Source: Pseudomonadota bacterium
GTDB taxonomy: Bacteria; Desulfobacterota; Binatia; UBA9968
DNA length: 64,000 nucleotides
NCBI GenBank assembly: GCA_021324155.1
Contig: JAJPJQ010000051.1
Span: 1-64,000 of the forward strand
Reading direction: 5' to 3'
The notes under the pieces were generated by a model, which was not told where the DNA came from, made no database searches, and saw only the letters and a program-made list of their open reading frames with translations. This document shows, piece after piece, positions 51,302-61,875 of this stretch. How positions within the stretch are numbered: the first letter of the stretch is position 1; each line of letters starts with the position of its first letter. A program made the translations under genes and the position numbers.

Positions 51302-52132
51302 TTAGTGCAGGGCGGCGCCCTTCTTTAGCTCCACCACCTGATCTCTAATATCTTCGGCATCGCTCGCGTCCGGCGCGAGTCGTAGGTACGCCTCGAAATC
51401 GTTGATCGCCTGCTGGAAGCATTCGAGCTTGAGATACAGCGTTCCGCGATCGCGGATCTCCGGCGCGGAGGCGGGATCGAGGATCACCAGGCGCTCGGCC
51501 GCGGACAGCGCCTTGACGAGATTTTCCTCGCTCATGTAGATGCCCTTCAGGTTGTTGAGCATGCGGTGGATGATCTGCCGGCTGGAGATGGGCGCCAGAA
51601 ATTCCGGCCGCAACGCGATCTTGCCGTTGTAGACGCCGTCGAGGAGACGCTGCAGCTCCTCCAGCGTCCGCACTTCGCCGTTGTCGAACGGATCGATCAC
51701 GATCTCTTCGTCGTCGCTCTCGTATTTGACCAGAAAATGACCCGGAAACCCCACGCCGTTGAGCGGCAGCCCCGCCCGTCGCGCGACTTCGATGTAGATC
51801 ACAGACAGGGTGATCGGTATGCCCTTCTTGCGCTCAAGGACGTCGTTTAAAAAGCTGTTGCGCGGATCGTAGTAGTCGCCCCGGTTGCCGCGGAAGCTCT
51901 CTTGCTTAAAGAGAACATGATTGAGCGACGCGATCAGGCGGTAAGGATCGCTCTCGCCGCGGGCGAGATCGCGCACGCGGCCCGCGAGCTCGTCCAGCCG
52001 TGCGAGATACGTTTCCGGCCGTAGCGCCGGGTATTCGTCCTGCGCGATGGCTAAAGCCGCGCGTGCGAGGTCGAAATCATCGCCCGCCTGCGCGACGACC
52101 CGGCGGAAAAGCGTGTGGCGGTCGCTCCCCAT
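51302..52132 (-). CDS. SirB1-like transglutaminase-type/TPR protein
   Basis: A 276-residue protein of the SirB1 (Transglut_core2) family. Key parts are FLNDVLERKKGIPITLSVIY, VARRAGLPLNGVGFPGHFLVKY and FDNGEVRTLEELQ, followed by TPR-like helices (LYLKLECFQQAINDFEAYLRLAPDA). In the core the usual catalytic Cys position is not present; the loop has PGHFLVKY. ATG 52132 is preferred over the upstream frame. It lies downstream of a ThDP enzyme gene. Its function is unknown. Confidence 0.85.
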   Translation of the reverse strand: MGSDRHTLFRRVVAQAGDDFDLARAALAIAQDEYPALRPETYLARLDELAGRVRDLARGESDPYRLIASLNHVLFKQESFRGNRGDYYDPRNSFLNDVLERKKGIPITLSVIYIEVARRAGLPLNGVGFPGHFLVKYESDDEEIVIDPFDNGEVRTLEELQRLLDGVYNGKIALRPEFLAPISSRQIIHRMLNNLKGIYMSEENLVKALSAAERLVILDPASAPEIRDRGTLYLKLECFQQAINDFEAYLRLAPDASDAEDIRDQVVELKKGAALH

Positions 52133-52142
52133 CCATTTTGGC

Positions 52143-53909
52143 TTAGCGCGGCTCGGAAATGACGTCAACGAGCGCCGGGAGCTTTTTTTCCTGCACGATC
52201 TTGAGCGCGCGCTCGATCGCCGGGCGGACTTCCGACGGCTTGGAGATCGGCCCTTCGGCGTGGACGCCGAAGCCGCGCGCGACATTGGAGTAGTCGACCG
52301 CCGGATCGTCAACGTGCGTCCCGATGCCGGCGTTCTCGACCGGACGCTTGCGGAACTTGGCGATCTGGATGCCGTGCTCCTCGGAGTTGTAGAACGACTG
52401 GTTGTTGTGCATCACGATGAGCAGGGGAATGCGGTGCTTCGCCGCGGTCCACAGCGCGCTCGACGTCATCAAAAAGTCGCCGTCCGCCTGGATGTCGACC
52501 GCGAGTGTGCCGCTGTCCTTGAGCGCGAGCGCCGCGCCGATCGCCGCGCCCATGCCGTAGCCCAGGCCAGCCCCGCCGCTCGTGCCGAGGTGCTGGCGGG
52601 GCTTGGTGAAATTCCACAGTTTGCGCGCCCAGCCGTTGGCGCTGCCGTTGACGAGCACCCAGTCGTGTTTTTTGATCGCCTCGCCGATCTCATAGGCGAG
52701 AAAAGCGGTCGAGACCACCTGGGAGTCAGCCTTGCCGCGCGCTTCGGCCTGCCACTTGCTGCGCAGATCGTCATGGCGCTTTTTGATCTCGCCCATGCGC
52801 GCGTCGACGCCGCCTTTTTTACTGCCGAGCAGTTCGCGGCAGAGGCGCGTAAGCTCCGGCACTGCGACCGAGCTATCGGCGGCGATCGGAACATCGATCG
52901 CCTGCAGCACCTGATAATCACTGCACCAGCTGCGCACGAGCATGTCGGCCAGCGTGATGTGGATGATCTTGGCGTTCCCCGTCACGTATTCCGACACGCG
53001 GGTCGTGCGGTTGACGCGCGTGAGCGAGCCGTAGAGATCGATCACGTCGAGCGCGAGGATCACGTCGGCCTTCTCCAGCAATTCGCGCGCGCCGTCGGTC
53101 ACATCGAGCGGATGGTTGTTGGGAAAATTCATCCGGTTGCCTTTGTCGACCACGGGAATCGCGAGCAGCTCCGCGAGCTCGACGAGCGACTTCATCGCCT
53201 CGGGCTTGCGGCCGTACATGTCGGCGATGATGAGCGGCGCTTTGGCGTCCACCAGGAGCTTCGCCGCGCGCTTCATCGCTTCGGGGTTCCCCTGCATCGG
53301 CGCGGGCGGCTCGTAGCGCGTCACGTCCGGCAATTCGAACGCTCCCGTGAGCGCGTCTTCCTGAAGATCGGCGTCGTAGTTGATGTAGACCGGCGCCATG
53401 GGCTCGGTCGTCGCGATGCGGTAGCCGCGGATGAACGACTCCGGCACGCTCGCAAGCGTGTAAGGTTGATCGTCCCATTTGACGTAATCGCGCACCTGAT
53501 TTCCCTGGACGAGGGCCGTGTGGATCCAGTCGATCCGCGGCCGGCGCCGGGTCGTATCCATCGGCCCCGTGCCGCCCAGCACGATCACCGGCACGCGGTC
53601 GCACCAGGCGTTGAAGATCGCCATGCTGGCATGCTGGAGTCCCACGATGTTGTGAACGATCGACATCATCGGCTTGCCCTTCGCCTTAGCGTAGCCATGC
53701 GCGACCGCGACGGAGATCTCCTCGTGAAAGCAAAAAATCACCTCGGGCATGTAGTTGCCGCCGTAGTTCACGATCGAATCGTGAATGCCGCGGAACGTCG
53801 CGCCGGGATTGAAGGCGGCGTATTCGATCTCGTGCGCCTTCATCAGATCGACGATCACGTCCGAGCCGTATTCCGGCCGCTTTTTTTCTATCGGTGCCCT
53901 TTTTGCCAC
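52143..53909 (-). CDS. ThDP-dependent enzyme, acetolactate synthase-like
   Basis: A 588-residue soluble ThDP enzyme with PYR, central and PP domains. The catalytic Glu is in CFHEEISVAVAHGYAKA. The PP motif starts ADGDFLMTSSALW and ends with NNQSFYN. The start is GTG 53909 with GGGAGA before it. It has no signal peptide, in contrast to the paralogue at 58464. A dehydrogenase gene (53997-54884) and a LOG gene lie upstream on the same strand. Chemistry on a 2-oxo acid is likely, but the substrate is unknown. Confidence 0.9.
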   Translation of the reverse strand: MAKRAPIEKKRPEYGSDVIVDLMKAHEIEYAAFNPGATFRGIHDSIVNYGGNYMPEVIFCFHEEISVAVAHGYAKAKGKPMMSIVHNIVGLQHASMAIFNAWCDRVPVIVLGGTGPMDTTRRRPRIDWIHTALVQGNQVRDYVKWDDQPYTLASVPESFIRGYRIATTEPMAPVYINYDADLQEDALTGAFELPDVTRYEPPAPMQGNPEAMKRAAKLLVDAKAPLIIADMYGRKPEAMKSLVELAELLAIPVVDKGNRMNFPNNHPLDVTDGARELLEKADVILALDVIDLYGSLTRVNRTTRVSEYVTGNAKIIHITLADMLVRSWCSDYQVLQAIDVPIAADSSVAVPELTRLCRELLGSKKGGVDARMGEIKKRHDDLRSKWQAEARGKADSQVVSTAFLAYEIGEAIKKHDWVLVNGSANGWARKLWNFTKPRQHLGTSGGAGLGYGMGAAIGAALALKDSGTLAVDIQADGDFLMTSSALWTAAKHRIPLLIVMHNNQSFYNSEEHGIQIAKFRKRPVENAGIGTHVDDPAVDYSNVARGFGVHAEGPISKPSEVRPAIERALKIVQEKKLPALVDVISEPR

Positions 53910-53996
53910 GATGCGTTCTCCCTTCTACCGTTGAACGAACACAATGATTTCACCCGCGGCGCGGATCCGATTGCGCGCGCGGGGCTTCCGTCCTCG

Positions 53997-54884
53997 CTAA
54001 TTTTTGCGTTGCAGCAGCCCGCGGCGTGAGAATAATTCCAGAGTCTCAATCAGGTCGCCGTCGCGCGCGCCGATTTCCGAAGCCTTGTGCAGATCGAGAG
54101 CGGCGATCTCTTCGAGAATCCTCCGCGTCGCCGGCGCGACGACCGGCTCGAGGCCCGAGTGGCGGTAAGTCTCGGCCAGCTCGGCCATTTCCTCGGCGCG
54201 GCGGCCGGCGTGCAGCGTCAGCGCGGCGATACCGCCGCCGACTCTGTCGAGCAGACCCGGAAAGCTCGCTTCGTACCGCTTCATGATCGGCTGCAATAAA
54301 TCAAACTTTCGCGCCCCGAGCAACAGCTCCGTGAAGAGCCCTTGAAGGCCTTTGGTGAGCCCGGCATAGACGACTTTGAAAGCCGAGGCCTGCCCGATCC
54401 TGGAGCCGAGAACCTCGACCTTTAGACCCGCTTCTTTCAGGGCCAGCATCTCCGCGGCGCGCGGTCCCGAGACATAGATCGTCGCGTTCCGGAGTTTCGA
54501 CGCCGATCCGATGATAGAGCCGTCGACGAACGAGCCGCCGGCGCGCGCGATCGAATTGCCAGCGGCCTCCGCCGTCATCGGCGAGATCGCATTGGCTTCG
54601 AGGTAAAGACAGCCCTTGCGGCCGGATTGTGAGAACGCGCGGGCGACCTCCGCCGCCACTTTTTCCGCCGCCGACGGAACGACGATCGATACGACGAGCT
54701 CGGCTTGGCCTACGAGCTCAACCATCGGCACCATCCGGACGCCGGCATTTTCCGCCCGCTTGCGCGTGACCTCGCTGCGGCCGCCGGCCGCCGTCATCAC
54801 CTCCACGCCGTGCTCTTTCAGCAGCCGCGCAAAGTGATACCCCATCTCGCCGATGCTTAAAATCGCGACGCGTTTGAATGCCAT
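53997..54884 (-). CDS. NAD(P)-dependent beta-hydroxyacid dehydrogenase-like protein
   Basis: A 295-residue oxidoreductase of the 6-phosphogluconate dehydrogenase / 3-hydroxyisobutyrate dehydrogenase class with a DUF1932-type C-terminal part. The Rossmann start is VAILSIGEMGYHFARLLKEHG, in which the usual GxGxxG is weak (SIGEMG). A catalytic-region segment (FVDGSIIGSASK) and a helical C-terminus follow. ATG 54884 has GAGG 8 nt before it. It is transcribed with the LOG gene and the ThDP enzyme, and may reduce that enzyme's product. Confidence 0.85.
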   Translation of the reverse strand: MAFKRVAILSIGEMGYHFARLLKEHGVEVMTAAGGRSEVTRKRAENAGVRMVPMVELVGQAELVVSIVVPSAAEKVAAEVARAFSQSGRKGCLYLEANAISPMTAEAAGNSIARAGGSFVDGSIIGSASKLRNATIYVSGPRAAEMLALKEAGLKVEVLGSRIGQASAFKVVYAGLTKGLQGLFTELLLGARKFDLLQPIMKRYEASFPGLLDRVGGGIAALTLHAGRRAEEMAELAETYRHSGLEPVVAPATRRILEEIAALDLHKASEIGARDGDLIETLELFSRRGLLQRKN

Positions 54885-56852: not shown

Positions 56853-58424
56853 ATGAAAAAATACGCGCCGCTGATCGTCTTAACTGTCGCTCTGGTAGGC
56901 TTCATTCATCCGGTTCTCGCGGCGCCGCAGGCGACCGGCGCCAAGCGCCCGCTGCTCGAAGGCGCGCCCGCGGACATCGTACCCTGGGTATCCGATCCCA
57001 ATCAATCCGACACCTTCACTTTTCAGATTTTAACGACGCCGACCAACGGCACCGCCGCCGCGATCTCGTCGGGCACGGCGCTCGAATACACTCCGGCTTC
57101 GGGTTTCACCAGCGGGACAGATTCATATAAGTTCCGCGCCACCGATCAGAACGGTAATTTCGTCAACGGCAGAGCGCGCGTGCGCGTGTACGACAGCGTC
57201 GACAATCTTCCGACGCATATCTCGGCGCTGACGAAATGCACCCGCAACGGAACGCTTGCCGATGACGGGAGCGGCATGATCGGGGTGCGTACGAAATCGA
57301 ATGACTGCACCTTCTACACCCGGCGGCGGACTCGGGTCGCGCCGGACGGCACACCGGTAACGATGGATTATTTCATCAATTGGCCGTCGGACTCGAGTGT
57401 GCAGCCCAAAGGCGTCGTCGTTTTGATCGGCGGCGGCGATTTCAATATGAGCTTTTCCGGCGATACCGTCAAAGGCGTTCCCGACGAGACCGGCGGAGGA
57501 AACTTCATCGTGCGCACGGCGCAGTTGATAGCGAACGCCGGCTACATCACGGTCGCGCTGAACAAACCCTCGGATCTGCCCGCGGCCGGCACCGTTTGCA
57601 CCGGCGCTGCCGACGATCCTTGTCAGGCTCAGGCCGACCAGTACCGCGTGTCGACGAATCACGCCGTGGATATTTTGAAAATTTTGAACCGCGTCAATAC
57701 GCTGAACCTGCCCGTTTTTCTAGCGGGAACGAGCAAGGGCGCGCTGTCGGCAGTCGCGCAGAACCTGATCGCCACCGGCATCTCGCTGTCGAGCCCGGTC
57801 ACGAATAACGCGGGCAGCCCGACATATCTTTACGTCGGAGCTCCGGGCAATCTGGCAACGACGTTCGTCAAGCGGCCGGTCCAGGTGCTCTGGAATACGA
57901 GCGATCTCTGCGCCGCTTCGCCGCCGTCGGGTTCATCTTCGTTGTATTCCGTTCTACTGACGACCACAACTGCGTCGAGCGCGACCGTGAGCGGCGGACT
58001 CAGAGTGACAGCCGACGGCAACGGCCTCGACCCCGAGGATATCGGTTTTTGTAGTCCTTTCGACTACCACGGTTATTTCGGCATCGAAGATACGGCCGTT
58101 GGTATGATCACGGCGTGGCTCGATAGTCGGGTCCTCGCGCTCGGTGGCGCAACGCCGCCGAGCGCGCCGTCCGGGAAGGCTCCGGTAGCTTCCGGGGGCA
58201 CGAGACAATTCAACCTGAAAAATATCACCGGCAATCCGGCGGGCGTCGTCTATGGGCTTTCGAACAGCGTCTCGAGCCTCGGTGGGAGCGTTACGATTGC
58301 CGGCGCAAAGGTAACCTATACGGCGCCGACGGGTGTGACGAATCAAACGGACTATTTCGTTTACACGGTCACCGGCCCGCAAGGCGCGGTGAACGCCGGC
58401 ATCATCACTGTCAAAATCAATTAG
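56853..58424 (+). CDS. Secreted alpha/beta-hydrolase-like protein flanked by Ig-type domains
   Basis: A 523-residue exported protein. The signal peptide is MKKYAPLIVLTVALVGFIHP (cleavage near VLA-AP). Residues 30-115 form a cadherin/Big_9-like beta domain. Residues 120-420 look like an alpha/beta hydrolase with a nucleophile elbow GTSKGA (Ser294) and Cys pairs. Residues 430-523 form a second Ig-like domain (FNLKNITGNPAGVVYGLS). The middle region also contains GVVVLIGGGDFNMSFSG, where the oxyanion loop would be. It may be a surface esterase or depolymerase; it is not a named family I recognise. Confidence 0.75.
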   Translation: MKKYAPLIVLTVALVGFIHPVLAAPQATGAKRPLLEGAPADIVPWVSDPNQSDTFTFQILTTPTNGTAAAISSGTALEYTPASGFTSGTDSYKFRATDQNGNFVNGRARVRVYDSVDNLPTHISALTKCTRNGTLADDGSGMIGVRTKSNDCTFYTRRRTRVAPDGTPVTMDYFINWPSDSSVQPKGVVVLIGGGDFNMSFSGDTVKGVPDETGGGNFIVRTAQLIANAGYITVALNKPSDLPAAGTVCTGAADDPCQAQADQYRVSTNHAVDILKILNRVNTLNLPVFLAGTSKGALSAVAQNLIATGISLSSPVTNNAGSPTYLYVGAPGNLATTFVKRPVQVLWNTSDLCAASPPSGSSSLYSVLLTTTTASSATVSGGLRVTADGNGLDPEDIGFCSPFDYHGYFGIEDTAVGMITAWLDSRVLALGGATPPSAPSGKAPVASGGTRQFNLKNITGNPAGVVYGLSNSVSSLGGSVTIAGAKVTYTAPTGVTNQTDYFVYTVTGPQGAVNAGIITVKIN

Positions 58425-58463: not shown

Positions 58464-60383
58464 TCATACCTTCCGCGTTCTCTCCTGTGCGATGCGGATC
58501 GGCGGCGTCCACGGCTGCTCCGCCCAGCCGACGCCGGTGCGGCGCACTTGCGCGTCGATGAGATAAGGCTTGCCTTCCTGGGTCGCGCGCTTGGCGCGCG
58601 CGAGCGCCTCTTTGAGCTGACCGGGCGAGCCGACGACCTCGCCCTCGACGCCGAATCCTTTCGCGATGTAGGCCATGTTCATATCGGGGTTGCCGAGATA
58701 ATCGTGCATGAACTGGCCCGTCTGGACCATGCGGCCGCCGGGCGAATGGTTGATCGCGCGGCTGTGCGGTCCCGAGTAGGCATGGTTGTTGTAAACGACC
58801 GTGATCACCGGCAGCTCGAGCCGCGCCATGTTCCACAGCGCGGTCGGCCCGAAAATGAACGAGCCGTCGCCGACGAGACAAATCACCTGCTGGTTGGGAC
58901 GCGCGAGCTTGACGCCCGCGGCGGTACCGACACCGGATCCCAGATGCGCGCCGTAATAGAAAAAAAGCTCGCGGCCGCCGAGCGGGTTAAACTCGAAGCT
59001 ATGAAAGCCGATCGAGCCCGCTTCGTGGACGACGATGGCGTCTTTGTCGGCAAACTGCGCGACTTCATAGGTTAGGCGGTCGGCGAGCAGCGGGCTTTCG
59101 TTCCAATCGGGATTCTTGACGATCTGCGCGCGCAGCGTCTTGGCGCGCTCGCTGAACTTGCGTATATCGTCGGCGCGCTCTCTCGCCTTCTGCTTGATCG
59201 CGGGCGTGAGAATCCCCTCGACGGCGGCGATCAGATCATCGAGGCCGTAGGCGACGTCGGCGAAGAGCGGCGCCTCGGTCGTGATCACGTTGCCCATCGA
59301 CACATTGTCGTTGCGCAGATCGATGAACTTGGCGTTGCGCGCGACGATCGGCGCAGGACCGTTGTGCTGGAGCTTGTTGCCGACATTGATGACGACGTCG
59401 GCGTCCTTCGGATAGGTGAGTGAATCGACGCGCGCGCTCGGAATTGTGCCGACCCACAGCGGATGCGATTCGGGGAAATTGGCGAACAGCTGGCGCACCT
59501 GCGTGACCGACATGCCGATCATCTCAGCCAGCTTCACCGCCTTGTCCACCGCTCTGGCCTTGTAAAGCTCGTCGCCGACGATCATCACCGGCGTCTTCGC
59601 CTCGACGAGCAGCTTCGCCGCCCGCTCGACCTCTTTAGGATTGGGCCGCACGCGTGTGCGCGGGTCGATCTTCTCCTGGGCGATAATCTCCGTCCGGACA
59701 TTCTCGTCGTTCAAGTCGGCGTGCCAGGAGACGTAGGATGGGCCGTAGGGCGCCGTCCAGGCGGCCTTGAAGCCACGCCGGACGGTCTCGGGGATCATGT
59801 CGGCGCGGCGCGAAAGCCAGGTATATTTCGTGATCGGCTGGACCACTTGTTCCTGGTTCGCGACTTCTTCGAAGCCGTCGCGGCCCGAGCGGCGCGTCGA
59901 GTCGGTGCGGTAGCTGTAGAAGACGAGCGGCGTCTGCTCCTTGAAGGCGTTGAACATCTGGCCAACGGCGTTCGCCAGGCCGACGAAGCCCGCCTGCATC
60001 ACGAGCGCCGGCTCGTTCGAGGCCTTCACGTAGCCGGCGGCCATCGCAGCGCCGGGTCCCTCGTGCGGCGTGAGAATATATTTGAGCTGCGGCCGATCGA
60101 CGAGCGCGTCGTAGAAGTGCGCGTCCTCGCTCGCTGAGTTGCCGAAGACGTATTTGACGCCAGAAGCGACCAATTGCTCGGCGAACGCGGCGGCGCCTTT
60201 CCCCTGGAAGAGCTTGACGCCTTCGGGCGCAACACGCCGCGCCTCCTGCGCAAGCGCAACTTGATCGAGCGATTGGAGAATGGACTCGGCGGCGGCGAGC
60301 GTAAGGCCGGCCCGCGTGAGACCCTTAAGGAATCCGCGCCGCGAGACCGAATGCGACAAGTAGCGTGCGACCAGCTCTCTCAT
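58464..60383 (-). CDS. Tat-exported ThDP-dependent enzyme
   Basis: A 639-residue ThDP enzyme of the acetolactate synthase / benzoylformate decarboxylase type with a twin-arginine signal: S14-R-R-G-F-L-K20, then a hydrophobic stretch and a cut near ALAQ-EA. It has the catalytic Glu (TPHEGPG, E108) and the cofactor motif GDGSFIFGPTALW (GDG 505-507) through NN (532-533). A Tat signal implies export of a folded, cofactor-loaded enzyme to the periplasm. It is co-transcribed 8 bp after a cytochrome c gene. It is unlike the cytosolic paralogue at 52143. Confidence 0.92.
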   Translation of the reverse strand: MRELVARYLSHSVSRRGFLKGLTRAGLTLAAAESILQSLDQVALAQEARRVAPEGVKLFQGKGAAAFAEQLVASGVKYVFGNSASEDAHFYDALVDRPQLKYILTPHEGPGAAMAAGYVKASNEPALVMQAGFVGLANAVGQMFNAFKEQTPLVFYSYRTDSTRRSGRDGFEEVANQEQVVQPITKYTWLSRRADMIPETVRRGFKAAWTAPYGPSYVSWHADLNDENVRTEIIAQEKIDPRTRVRPNPKEVERAAKLLVEAKTPVMIVGDELYKARAVDKAVKLAEMIGMSVTQVRQLFANFPESHPLWVGTIPSARVDSLTYPKDADVVINVGNKLQHNGPAPIVARNAKFIDLRNDNVSMGNVITTEAPLFADVAYGLDDLIAAVEGILTPAIKQKARERADDIRKFSERAKTLRAQIVKNPDWNESPLLADRLTYEVAQFADKDAIVVHEAGSIGFHSFEFNPLGGRELFFYYGAHLGSGVGTAAGVKLARPNQQVICLVGDGSFIFGPTALWNMARLELPVITVVYNNHAYSGPHSRAINHSPGGRMVQTGQFMHDYLGNPDMNMAYIAKGFGVEGEVVGSPGQLKEALARAKRATQEGKPYLIDAQVRRTGVGWAEQPWTPPIRIAQERTRKV

Positions 60384-60391
60384 ATAGGCTC

Positions 60392-60706
60392 CTATTTACC
60401 CTCTGACTTCGACGGCTTCGCCTCTTGCGGCGGAAGCGTCGCGAGATACGACGCCATTGTGTTGATTTCGTCTTCCGTCCAGAGCGCGCCGCGGCCGACC
60501 ATGCGGTAGAGCGCGGCCTGCCAGCGCCTGCGATCCTGGCGCTGGTCTTTCCACATGCCTTCGTTGTGGCATTGAAAGCACTTCGACATGAGCAAATCCT
60601 TGCCCGGGCCGTCCGGCAGCGCAACGCTCTGCTCGGCGGCCGGGAGATTTGCCGATGCCAAGACGAATATACAAACGAATAATAAAAGGAGCCTGAAGAA
60701 AGACAT
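60392..60706 (-). CDS. Small c-type cytochrome
   Basis: A 104-residue periplasmic monoheme cytochrome c. There is a signal peptide (MSFFRLLLLFVCIFVLASAN) and one heme site C43-x2-C46-H47 (CFQCHN), with Met84 (INTMASYL) as the likely second ligand. The ribosome site GAGGAGGG precedes it. It is the first gene of a two-gene operon with the Tat-exported ThDP enzyme, 8 bp apart, so it is a candidate electron acceptor for that enzyme. Confidence 0.92.
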   Translation of the reverse strand: MSFFRLLLLFVCIFVLASANLPAAEQSVALPDGPGKDLLMSKCFQCHNEGMWKDQRQDRRRWQAALYRMVGRGALWTEDEINTMASYLATLPPQEAKPSKSEGK

Positions 60707-60792: not shown

Positions 60793-61875
60793 CTACATGA
60801 CCGACAGGCTGCCGGGCGGCGATGGCGGTTTAACGTTAAACGCGGCGTTCACGGACTTGGCCGCAGTCATGGTCACGACGCAGGCGCCGGTTCCGGTGCA
60901 CGCGCCGGTCCAGCCCGCGAATGTCGCGCCCGCGGCCGCCGTCGCCGTCAAAGCCACCGAGGTACCCGGGGCATAATTCGCCGAGCACGTTGAGCCGCAG
61001 TTGATGCCTGCGGGAGCGCTCGTGATCGTGCCGCCGCCGCTCCCGCTTTTCGTCGTCGTGAGGGCGAATGTCTGGGTGTTGAACGTCGCCGTGACCGACT
61101 TCGCCGCGGTCATCGACACCACGCAGGCGCCCGTGCCGCTACATGCGCCGCTCCAGCCCGCGAACGTCGAGCCTGCGGCCGCAGTCGGCATTAGCGTGAC
61201 CGACGTGGCGTTATTAAAGTTCGCCGAGCAGGTCGCGCCGCAGGAGATGCCCGCCGGAGAACTTGTCACACTGCCGCCTCCTGTGCCGGCCTTGGTCAAG
61301 TTTAGCGAAAAGCTTTGCAGCGCGAACGTCGCCGTCACCGACCGAGCGGCGCTCATCGTAATAATGCAGGAGCCGGTGCCGCTGCATGCGCCGCTCCAGC
61401 CGGTCAAAACCGATCCCGCCGCCGGCGCCGCTGTCAGCGTCACGGACGTTCCGCTCGTATAGCTCGCCGAGCATGTCGAGCCGCAAGAGATTCCGCTCGG
61501 ACTACTGGTGATCGTTCCCCCGCCGGCGCCGGCTTTGGTGAGCGTCAACGTGGAACCGGTCGTCGCGCACGCCGTATTCGTATAGCCGGAGTCGCCGACC
61601 GTGTTGTACGCGCGCACGCGGTAGCAGAACGTCGTCGCGTCGGCCAATCCGGTATCGGTATATGATGTGACATTCGACGCGACAATGCCGATTTGGGTGA
61701 ACGGCCCGGTCGAAGTCGGGCCGCGCTCGACTTTAAATCCATTCTCGTTCCCGGAATTATCCGTCCAGCTGAGTTGCAGCTGAGCCGCGCTTACTTCGCC
61801 GTACAAAAAAAGCACGGTGAGCAATAACGGCGCGATGCGCGGCGTTGCGCTCCGCAAGCGATTCAGGATCCGCAT
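60793..61875 (-). CDS. Secreted FN3 protein with three Cys-containing InlB-type repeats
   Basis: A 360-residue exported protein. The signal peptide (residues 8-30) is followed by one fibronectin type III domain (about 31-108: LQLSWTDNSGNENGFKVERG, TFCYRVRAYNTVG) and three repeats of about 78 residues (109-186, 189-265, 270-347). Each repeat carries a CGxTC pair and an AC-x-GTG-x-C pair, with pattern GTITSSPSGISCG. The repeats resemble InlB B-type (Flg_new-like) surface modules. Likely a surface or matrix protein; no catalytic domain is present. Confidence 0.88.
   Translation of the reverse strand: MRILNRLRSATPRIAPLLLTVLFLYGEVSAAQLQLSWTDNSGNENGFKVERGPTSTGPFTQIGIVASNVTSYTDTGLADATTFCYRVRAYNTVGDSGYTNTACATTGSTLTLTKAGAGGGTITSSPSGISCGSTCSASYTSGTSVTLTAAPAAGSVLTGWSGACSGTGSCIITMSAARSVTATFALQSFSLNLTKAGTGGGSVTSSPAGISCGATCSANFNNATSVTLMPTAAAGSTFAGWSGACSGTGACVVSMTAAKSVTATFNTQTFALTTTKSGSGGGTITSAPAGINCGSTCSANYAPGTSVALTATAAAGATFAGWTGACTGTGACVVTMTAAKSVNAAFNVKPPSPPGSLSVM
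60835..61551 (-). repeat. Three tandem copies of a ~78-codon unit
   Basis: The three InlB-type repeats inside the FN3 gene are also similar at the DNA level, each about 235 bp, and encode the Cys patterns CGxTC and ACxGTGxC. Such arrays can change in copy number by recombination. Confidence 0.8.

Follow-up and report, generated by a model that had tools for sequence, protein, structure and literature searches.

ThDP chemistry is regarded as cytoplasmic, and the electron acceptors of ThDP enzymes known to us are lipoamide/NAD, ferredoxin, flavin/quinone or oxygen. Pyruvate oxidase and PQO are found in the cytosol or at the inner membrane face and use FAD; a glycine triplet in the middle domain is a marker of such flavin binding. 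In 2-oxoacid:ferredoxin oxidoreductases, the ThDP adduct undergoes one-electron oxidation via a radical (PMC5020499). In benzoylformate decarboxylase (BFDC), a relay of Glu28 and His70 shuttles protons onto and off the ThDP adduct, and the H70A substitution lowers kcat by about 3,500-fold, although exchange of His70 for Thr or Leu costs only about 8- to 20-fold (PMC6028569). Among small cytochromes c, SorB and SorU dock on a periplasmic dehydrogenase and accept its electrons. SorU docks with its haem at the interface, about 8 Å from Mo, and the docking place of SorB on SorA is nearly the same as that of SorU on its own enzyme (PMC4760952).

Here we analyse a locus in which features of these systems meet. 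In the window, meaning the whole stretch of 64,000 nucleotides under analysis, a gene for a ThDP enzyme with a twin-arginine motif lies beside a gene for a SorB-like cytochrome c (Table 1). Our preferred reading, to which we assign a probability of roughly 0.68, is that the pair encodes an exported ThDP dehydrogenase that would oxidise a 2-oxo acid or aldehyde and pass the electrons to cytochrome c.

The gene pair and its export signals

On the minus strand the cytochrome gene comes first, and the ThDP gene follows with an AGGAG ribosome site that overlaps the cytochrome stop codon. The original prediction described a full-length ThDP enzyme with a twin-arginine signal, separated by 8 bp from a small c-type cytochrome with its own signal peptide, and both parts of this description hold. 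The enzyme has three domains and an SRRGF core, and across the gap lies a CFQCH protein with a hydrophobic leader. TPP_enzyme domains N, M and C occur in order, far above the Pfam cut-offs (1e-24, 1.6e-19 and 7e-24).

Table 1 Features of the gene pair in the window
Feature	Position	Strand	Basis or remark
ThDP enzyme gene	58464..60383	(-)	639 aa; AF2 pLDDT 84.8; closest fold BFDC, Z 44
Intergenic gap, 8 bp	60384..60391	(-)	Sequence
SorB-like monohaem cytochrome c gene	60392..60706	(-)	104 aa; NCBIfam SorB match, AF2 model
Predicted Tat signal region, residues 1-45	60249..60383	(-)	Sequence; ALA/Q cleavage-like site at residue 45
Twin-arginine core SRRGF, residues 14-18	60330..60344	(-)	Both Arg in 54/54 full-length members
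Catalytic Glu108 (BFDC Glu47 equivalent)	60060..60062	(-)	54/54 members
Ala131 at the BFDC His70 position	59991..59993	(-)	Alignment with family and BFDC
GDG(505-507)...NN(532-533) ThDP/Mg2+ motif	58785..58871	(-)	GDG and N533 in 54/54; N532 in 53/54
Predicted cytochrome signal peptide, about residues 1-24	60635..60706	(-)	Sequence; AF2 helix 3-16
CFQCH haem-binding motif, residues 43-47	60566..60580	(-)	Cys43, Cys46 and His47 invariant in 19 cytochromes

The N-terminus of the enzyme reads MRELVARYLSHSVSRRGFLKGL...VALA, with QE on the far side of the cleavage-like site. It contains the twin-arginine consensus S-R-R-x-F-L-K, then a mildly hydrophobic stretch and the ALA/Q site. In the family alignment the twin arginines are conserved within an otherwise variable region, and they are preceded by Ser or Thr in all 54 full-length members. 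The source genome carries two TatC genes as well as cytochrome c assembly proteins. A twin-arginine n-region, an h-region, an A-x-A site and a genomic TatC are all seen here, and from these we infer that the enzyme is exported by Tat. At the other end of the protein, a family-specific tail (58467-58535, minus strand) with a highly conserved Trp625 extends past the end of the matches to non-Tat relatives; it is modelled at low confidence.

For the cytochrome, NCBIfam SorB (NF052246) is the only library match of note (8.4e-6; 25.8 bits vs a cut-off of 93), and weak matches to the same profile are seen in 15 of 19 family cytochromes. The AF2 model (pLDDT 85.7) is closest to SorB 2blf_B, with a Z score of 8.8 compared with about 6 for generic cytochromes. 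Quinohaemoprotein amine dehydrogenase also ranked high in a Foldseek search of the model, which returned zero matches past E 0.001. Met69, invariant in the 19 family cytochromes, is likely the axial haem ligand, and model and sequence together present the SorB fold, CxxCH motif and candidate Met ligand.

The source genome holds only three SorB-like haem domains, two of which adjoin its two Tat-ThDP genes. The second such gene (L032:5167-7460; C32:234169-236459) encodes a protein 39% identical to the first and has its SorB-like cytochrome downstream; this pair directly adjoins a tRNA-Val gene. The third domain is in a 554-aa protein that also contains propeller-like repeats (L135:475-2139, minus strand).

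Among named proteins, SorB and SorU are closest to the cytochrome. This speaks for a sulfur route, whereby the ThDP enzyme would cleave a sulfonated 2-oxo acid or aldehyde to release sulfite and the cytochrome would serve in sulfite oxidation. We consider this highly improbable. Sulfoacetaldehyde acetyltransferase is indeed a weak relative of the ThDP enzyme, but BFDC-type models outscore the sulfoacetaldehyde model. Two neighbouring solute-binding proteins match broad NMT1 families, which resemble sulfonate-uptake proteins, but there is no SorA-type molybdoenzyme beside the window cytochrome or nearby, and the four Oxidored_molyb genes of the genome lie on other contigs.

Several other genes surround the pair. 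Another ThDP enzyme, which has no Tat signal, is encoded 6.5 kb away (52152-53906, minus strand), and a 660-aa open reading frame on the opposite strand (52047-54029, plus strand) is its antisense shadow. The gene at 56853-58424 (plus strand), convergent with the Tat-ThDP gene, encodes a secreted protein of 523 aa that contains a Big_9 domain. Two secreted proteins with fn3 and InlB-B-repeat-like regions, encoded about 8 kb apart (60793-61875 and L031:9193-10578, both minus strand), are apparently duplicates.

Distribution of the family and its cytochrome neighbours

A single GTDB genome scan found 33 relatives that cover the Tat region, mostly 63-83% identical and found in Betaproteobacteria, Acidobacteria, Rokubacteria, Rhizobiales and 'Deltaproteobacteria' bins, with three at 33-37% identity. 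Whole-genome searches added further members to this set, and about 60 relatives form one clade spanning 'Deltaproteobacteria' bins, Beta-, Alpha- and Gammaproteobacteria, Acidobacteriota and Rokubacteria. Presence of the Tat-ThDP gene is low: 5/148 genomes in the class of the window, 4/399 in a Burkholderiales-type order, 3/385 in an alphaproteobacterial class, 1/95 in the Rokubacteria phylum, and 19/347 in the Acidobacteriota phylum, where one genome has up to five copies. High identity between phyla combined with this low, patchy presence points to spread of the module by horizontal transfer. In plasmid records, ThDP enzymes were seen only at about 31% identity or less. Several records titled Bordetella parapertussis encode proteins 77-78% identical, but these are metagenome-assembled bins; we reject the species name as a mislabel and do not count the family as occurring in that pathogen.

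In a phylogenetic tree, quickly built without bootstrap and including a few long-branch rows, the Tat-ThDP proteins form one clade separate from non-Tat relatives (SH-aLRT 99). A clade without adjacent cytochromes splits off first, and the remaining 50 rows (support 96) hold all cytochrome-linked members. The basal Tat clade suggests that export is older than, or independent of, the cytochrome.

The original prediction proposed, as a check, that Tat motif and cytochrome should co-occur in homologous operons. Adjacency was scored using a profile of SorB-like cytochromes, for 55 scorable family members. The twin arginines are present in 54/54 full-length proteins and a co-oriented cytochrome is adjacent in 42/55, compared to 1/45 for non-Tat ThDP relatives (Fisher p 2e-15, which is indicative only because the rows share descent). 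The sole non-Tat positive (L033:10102-11874, minus strand) is a ThDP gene directly upstream of a cytochrome/Tat-ThDP pair, in the same operon. In the clade of the window, 33 of 35 scorable members have a same-strand cytochrome directly upstream; of the two exceptions, L043 has its cytochrome 2 kb upstream, and in the genome of L111 a tandem cytochrome is on another contig. Divergent clades have the cytochrome upstream in three cases, downstream in six and not adjacent in five. As the upstream or downstream position is clade-specific on the tree, gene order appears to have been rearranged while the partnership was kept.

Some members have more than one haem domain close by. Tandem or triple SorB-like haem domains lie by the Tat-ThDP gene at L056, L103, L110, L115, L118 and L126. 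A second CxxCH protein starts where the ThDP gene ends, or very shortly afterwards, at L041, L044, L046, L049-L052 and L057, and such cytochrome-ThDP-cytochrome operons include those of freshwater Burkholderiales.

The main caveat to the cytochrome-partner reading is the set of 13 scorable members without an adjacent SorB-like cytochrome, which weigh against it. These comprise six basal members (0/6 in the clade of L117 and L120-L125), the five divergent members, L043 and L111. In the three draft genomes that hold the five divergent members, no SorB-like cytochrome was found at 1e-8; these five enzymes are also without the relay His.

The active site and the proposed oxidation

The AF2 model of the enzyme ranks BFDC first in structure comparison (Z 44; rmsd 2.5 Å over about 515 residues; 24% identity), although the score for NF005485 (benzoylformate decarboxylase) is 240.5 bits against a cut-off of 493. 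The flavin glycine triplet GGG of AHAS and CDH is replaced in the family by GDE or GPE, and by GDE in the window enzyme, so the cytochrome is the obvious acceptor. An exported flavoprotein of the pyruvate oxidase/PQO kind, with FAD between ThDP and cytochrome, nevertheless finds some backing in the overall fold, which is also that of PQO (9ev6, Z 40.3), and in the presence of CDH, a flavin-type relative, among the best sequence matches. We judge such an enzyme quite improbable, as the altered triplet is like the GPD of BFDC and BFDC comes first in structure.

At the positions of BFDC Glu28 and His70, the window enzyme has Asp87 and Ala131, and the relay is absent. The same holds across its clade, with Asp in 32/32 and Ala or Val in 32/32 members, and in the other cytochrome-lineage members the His70 column is deleted in 15/15. 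In the basal clade without adjacent cytochromes the relay is intact (Glu 7/7, His 7/7), and the His is retained in several non-Tat BFDC-like relatives. Relay loss together with the cytochrome is suggestive of a change in chemistry, with oxidation in place of aldehyde release, and the basal enzymes are perhaps exported plain decarboxylases. Relay loss and cytochrome gain map to one branch of the tree, so that their agreement is a single event and not a replicated test. A reading of the pocket near Arg542 by alignment was dropped, as the BFDC alignment is gapped there.

The same observations bear on an exported but non-redox decarboxylase or carboligase, whose product the cytochrome would oxidise, unless it served another step of the pathway. 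The basal clade shows that a Tat motif and an intact relay can occur without an adjacent cytochrome, a His70 equivalent is also missing from carboligating enzymes such as AHAS, and the equivalents of BFDC Ser26 and His281 are conserved in the Tat-ThDP enzymes. This alternative is unlikely in our view, since the operons share no second exported dehydrogenase and the cytochrome, the only steady partner, is present where the relay is lost.

Returning to oxidation with cytochrome c as acceptor, we propose that the cytochrome crosses the membrane unfolded by the general route and is loaded with haem in the periplasm, and that the enzyme folds, cofactors ThDP and Mg2+ included, before Tat carries it out of the cytoplasm. 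Once there, its ThDP ylide would attack the 2-oxo acid (or aldehyde) to give a carbanion/enamine intermediate. Because the BFDC-type proton relay is dismantled, the enamine would not be released as aldehyde; the SorB-like cytochrome c, docked close to the active site, would oxidise it by taking up two electrons one at a time. Hydrolysis of the acyl-ThDP would then yield the acid, and the electrons would pass from the cytochrome to the respiratory chain. The original prediction of periplasmic ThDP oxidation with electrons going to cytochrome c thus gains support, at the level of sequences and models, from gene co-occurrence, the SorB-like fold and the loss of the relay.

As for the substrate, neighbouring genes were clustered and scanned. 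TctC binding proteins, Amidohydro_2 proteins and cupins recur, and the operons vary between phyla; genes of these three kinds are common in these bacteria. Organic acids are hinted at by the Amidohydro_2 proteins, the TRAP transporters and the binding proteins (TctC and NMT1), a set that differs from phylum to phylum.

The protein families are known, but their combination, a Tat-tagged ThDP enzyme beside a cytochrome c, was not found described in the literature searched. In openly licensed PMC literature we found neither an exported ThDP enzyme nor a ThDP/cytochrome c partnership, which is weak evidence of novelty. There is a fair chance that the enzyme represents a new class of ThDP oxidoreductase. 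In the boldest reading, for which the odds are about even, this would be a 2-oxo acid (or aldehyde):cytochrome c oxidoreductase, periplasmic and free of flavin, in which a c-type haem oxidises the ThDP enamine directly, one electron at a time in two steps. If so, organic acids would be oxidised outside the cytoplasm and their electrons would reach the respiratory chain with neither NADH nor CoA nor quinone serving as the first acceptor, giving an extra respiratory entry point. Tat would be shown to carry ThDP holoenzymes, and a natural ThDP-to-haem electron transfer would be available for study. As the family covers several phyla, mostly of uncultured environmental bacteria, the module may be a real and so far unseen route of carbon oxidation.

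Comparison with known systems

Compared with BFDC (1bfd, 6qsi, 7orx), the window enzyme shares the fold, the catalytic Glu, the GDG...NN motif, the Ser26 and His281 equivalents and the lack of a flavin glycine motif. It differs in its Tat signal, its C-terminal tail with Trp625 and its cytochrome partner, and in having Asp in place of Glu28 and Ala in place of His70. Pyruvate oxidase and PQO have the same ThDP fold, and like them the window enzyme would oxidise the enamine on ThDP and supply electrons to respiration; unlike them it is predicted to be exported, has no flavin motif and is partnered by a cytochrome c. With 2-oxoacid:ferredoxin oxidoreductase (PMC5020499) the window enzyme would share a principle, namely that a metal centre oxidises a ThDP adduct one electron at a time; the ferredoxin-linked enzyme differs in having another domain arrangement, Fe-S clusters, CoA and a cytosolic location. 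Finally, in SorAB and SorT-SorU the catalytic subunit is a molybdenum enzyme and not a ThDP enzyme, but the arrangement of a small monohaem cytochrome c beside a periplasmic dehydrogenase is alike, and the cytochrome fold is shared (Z 8.8).
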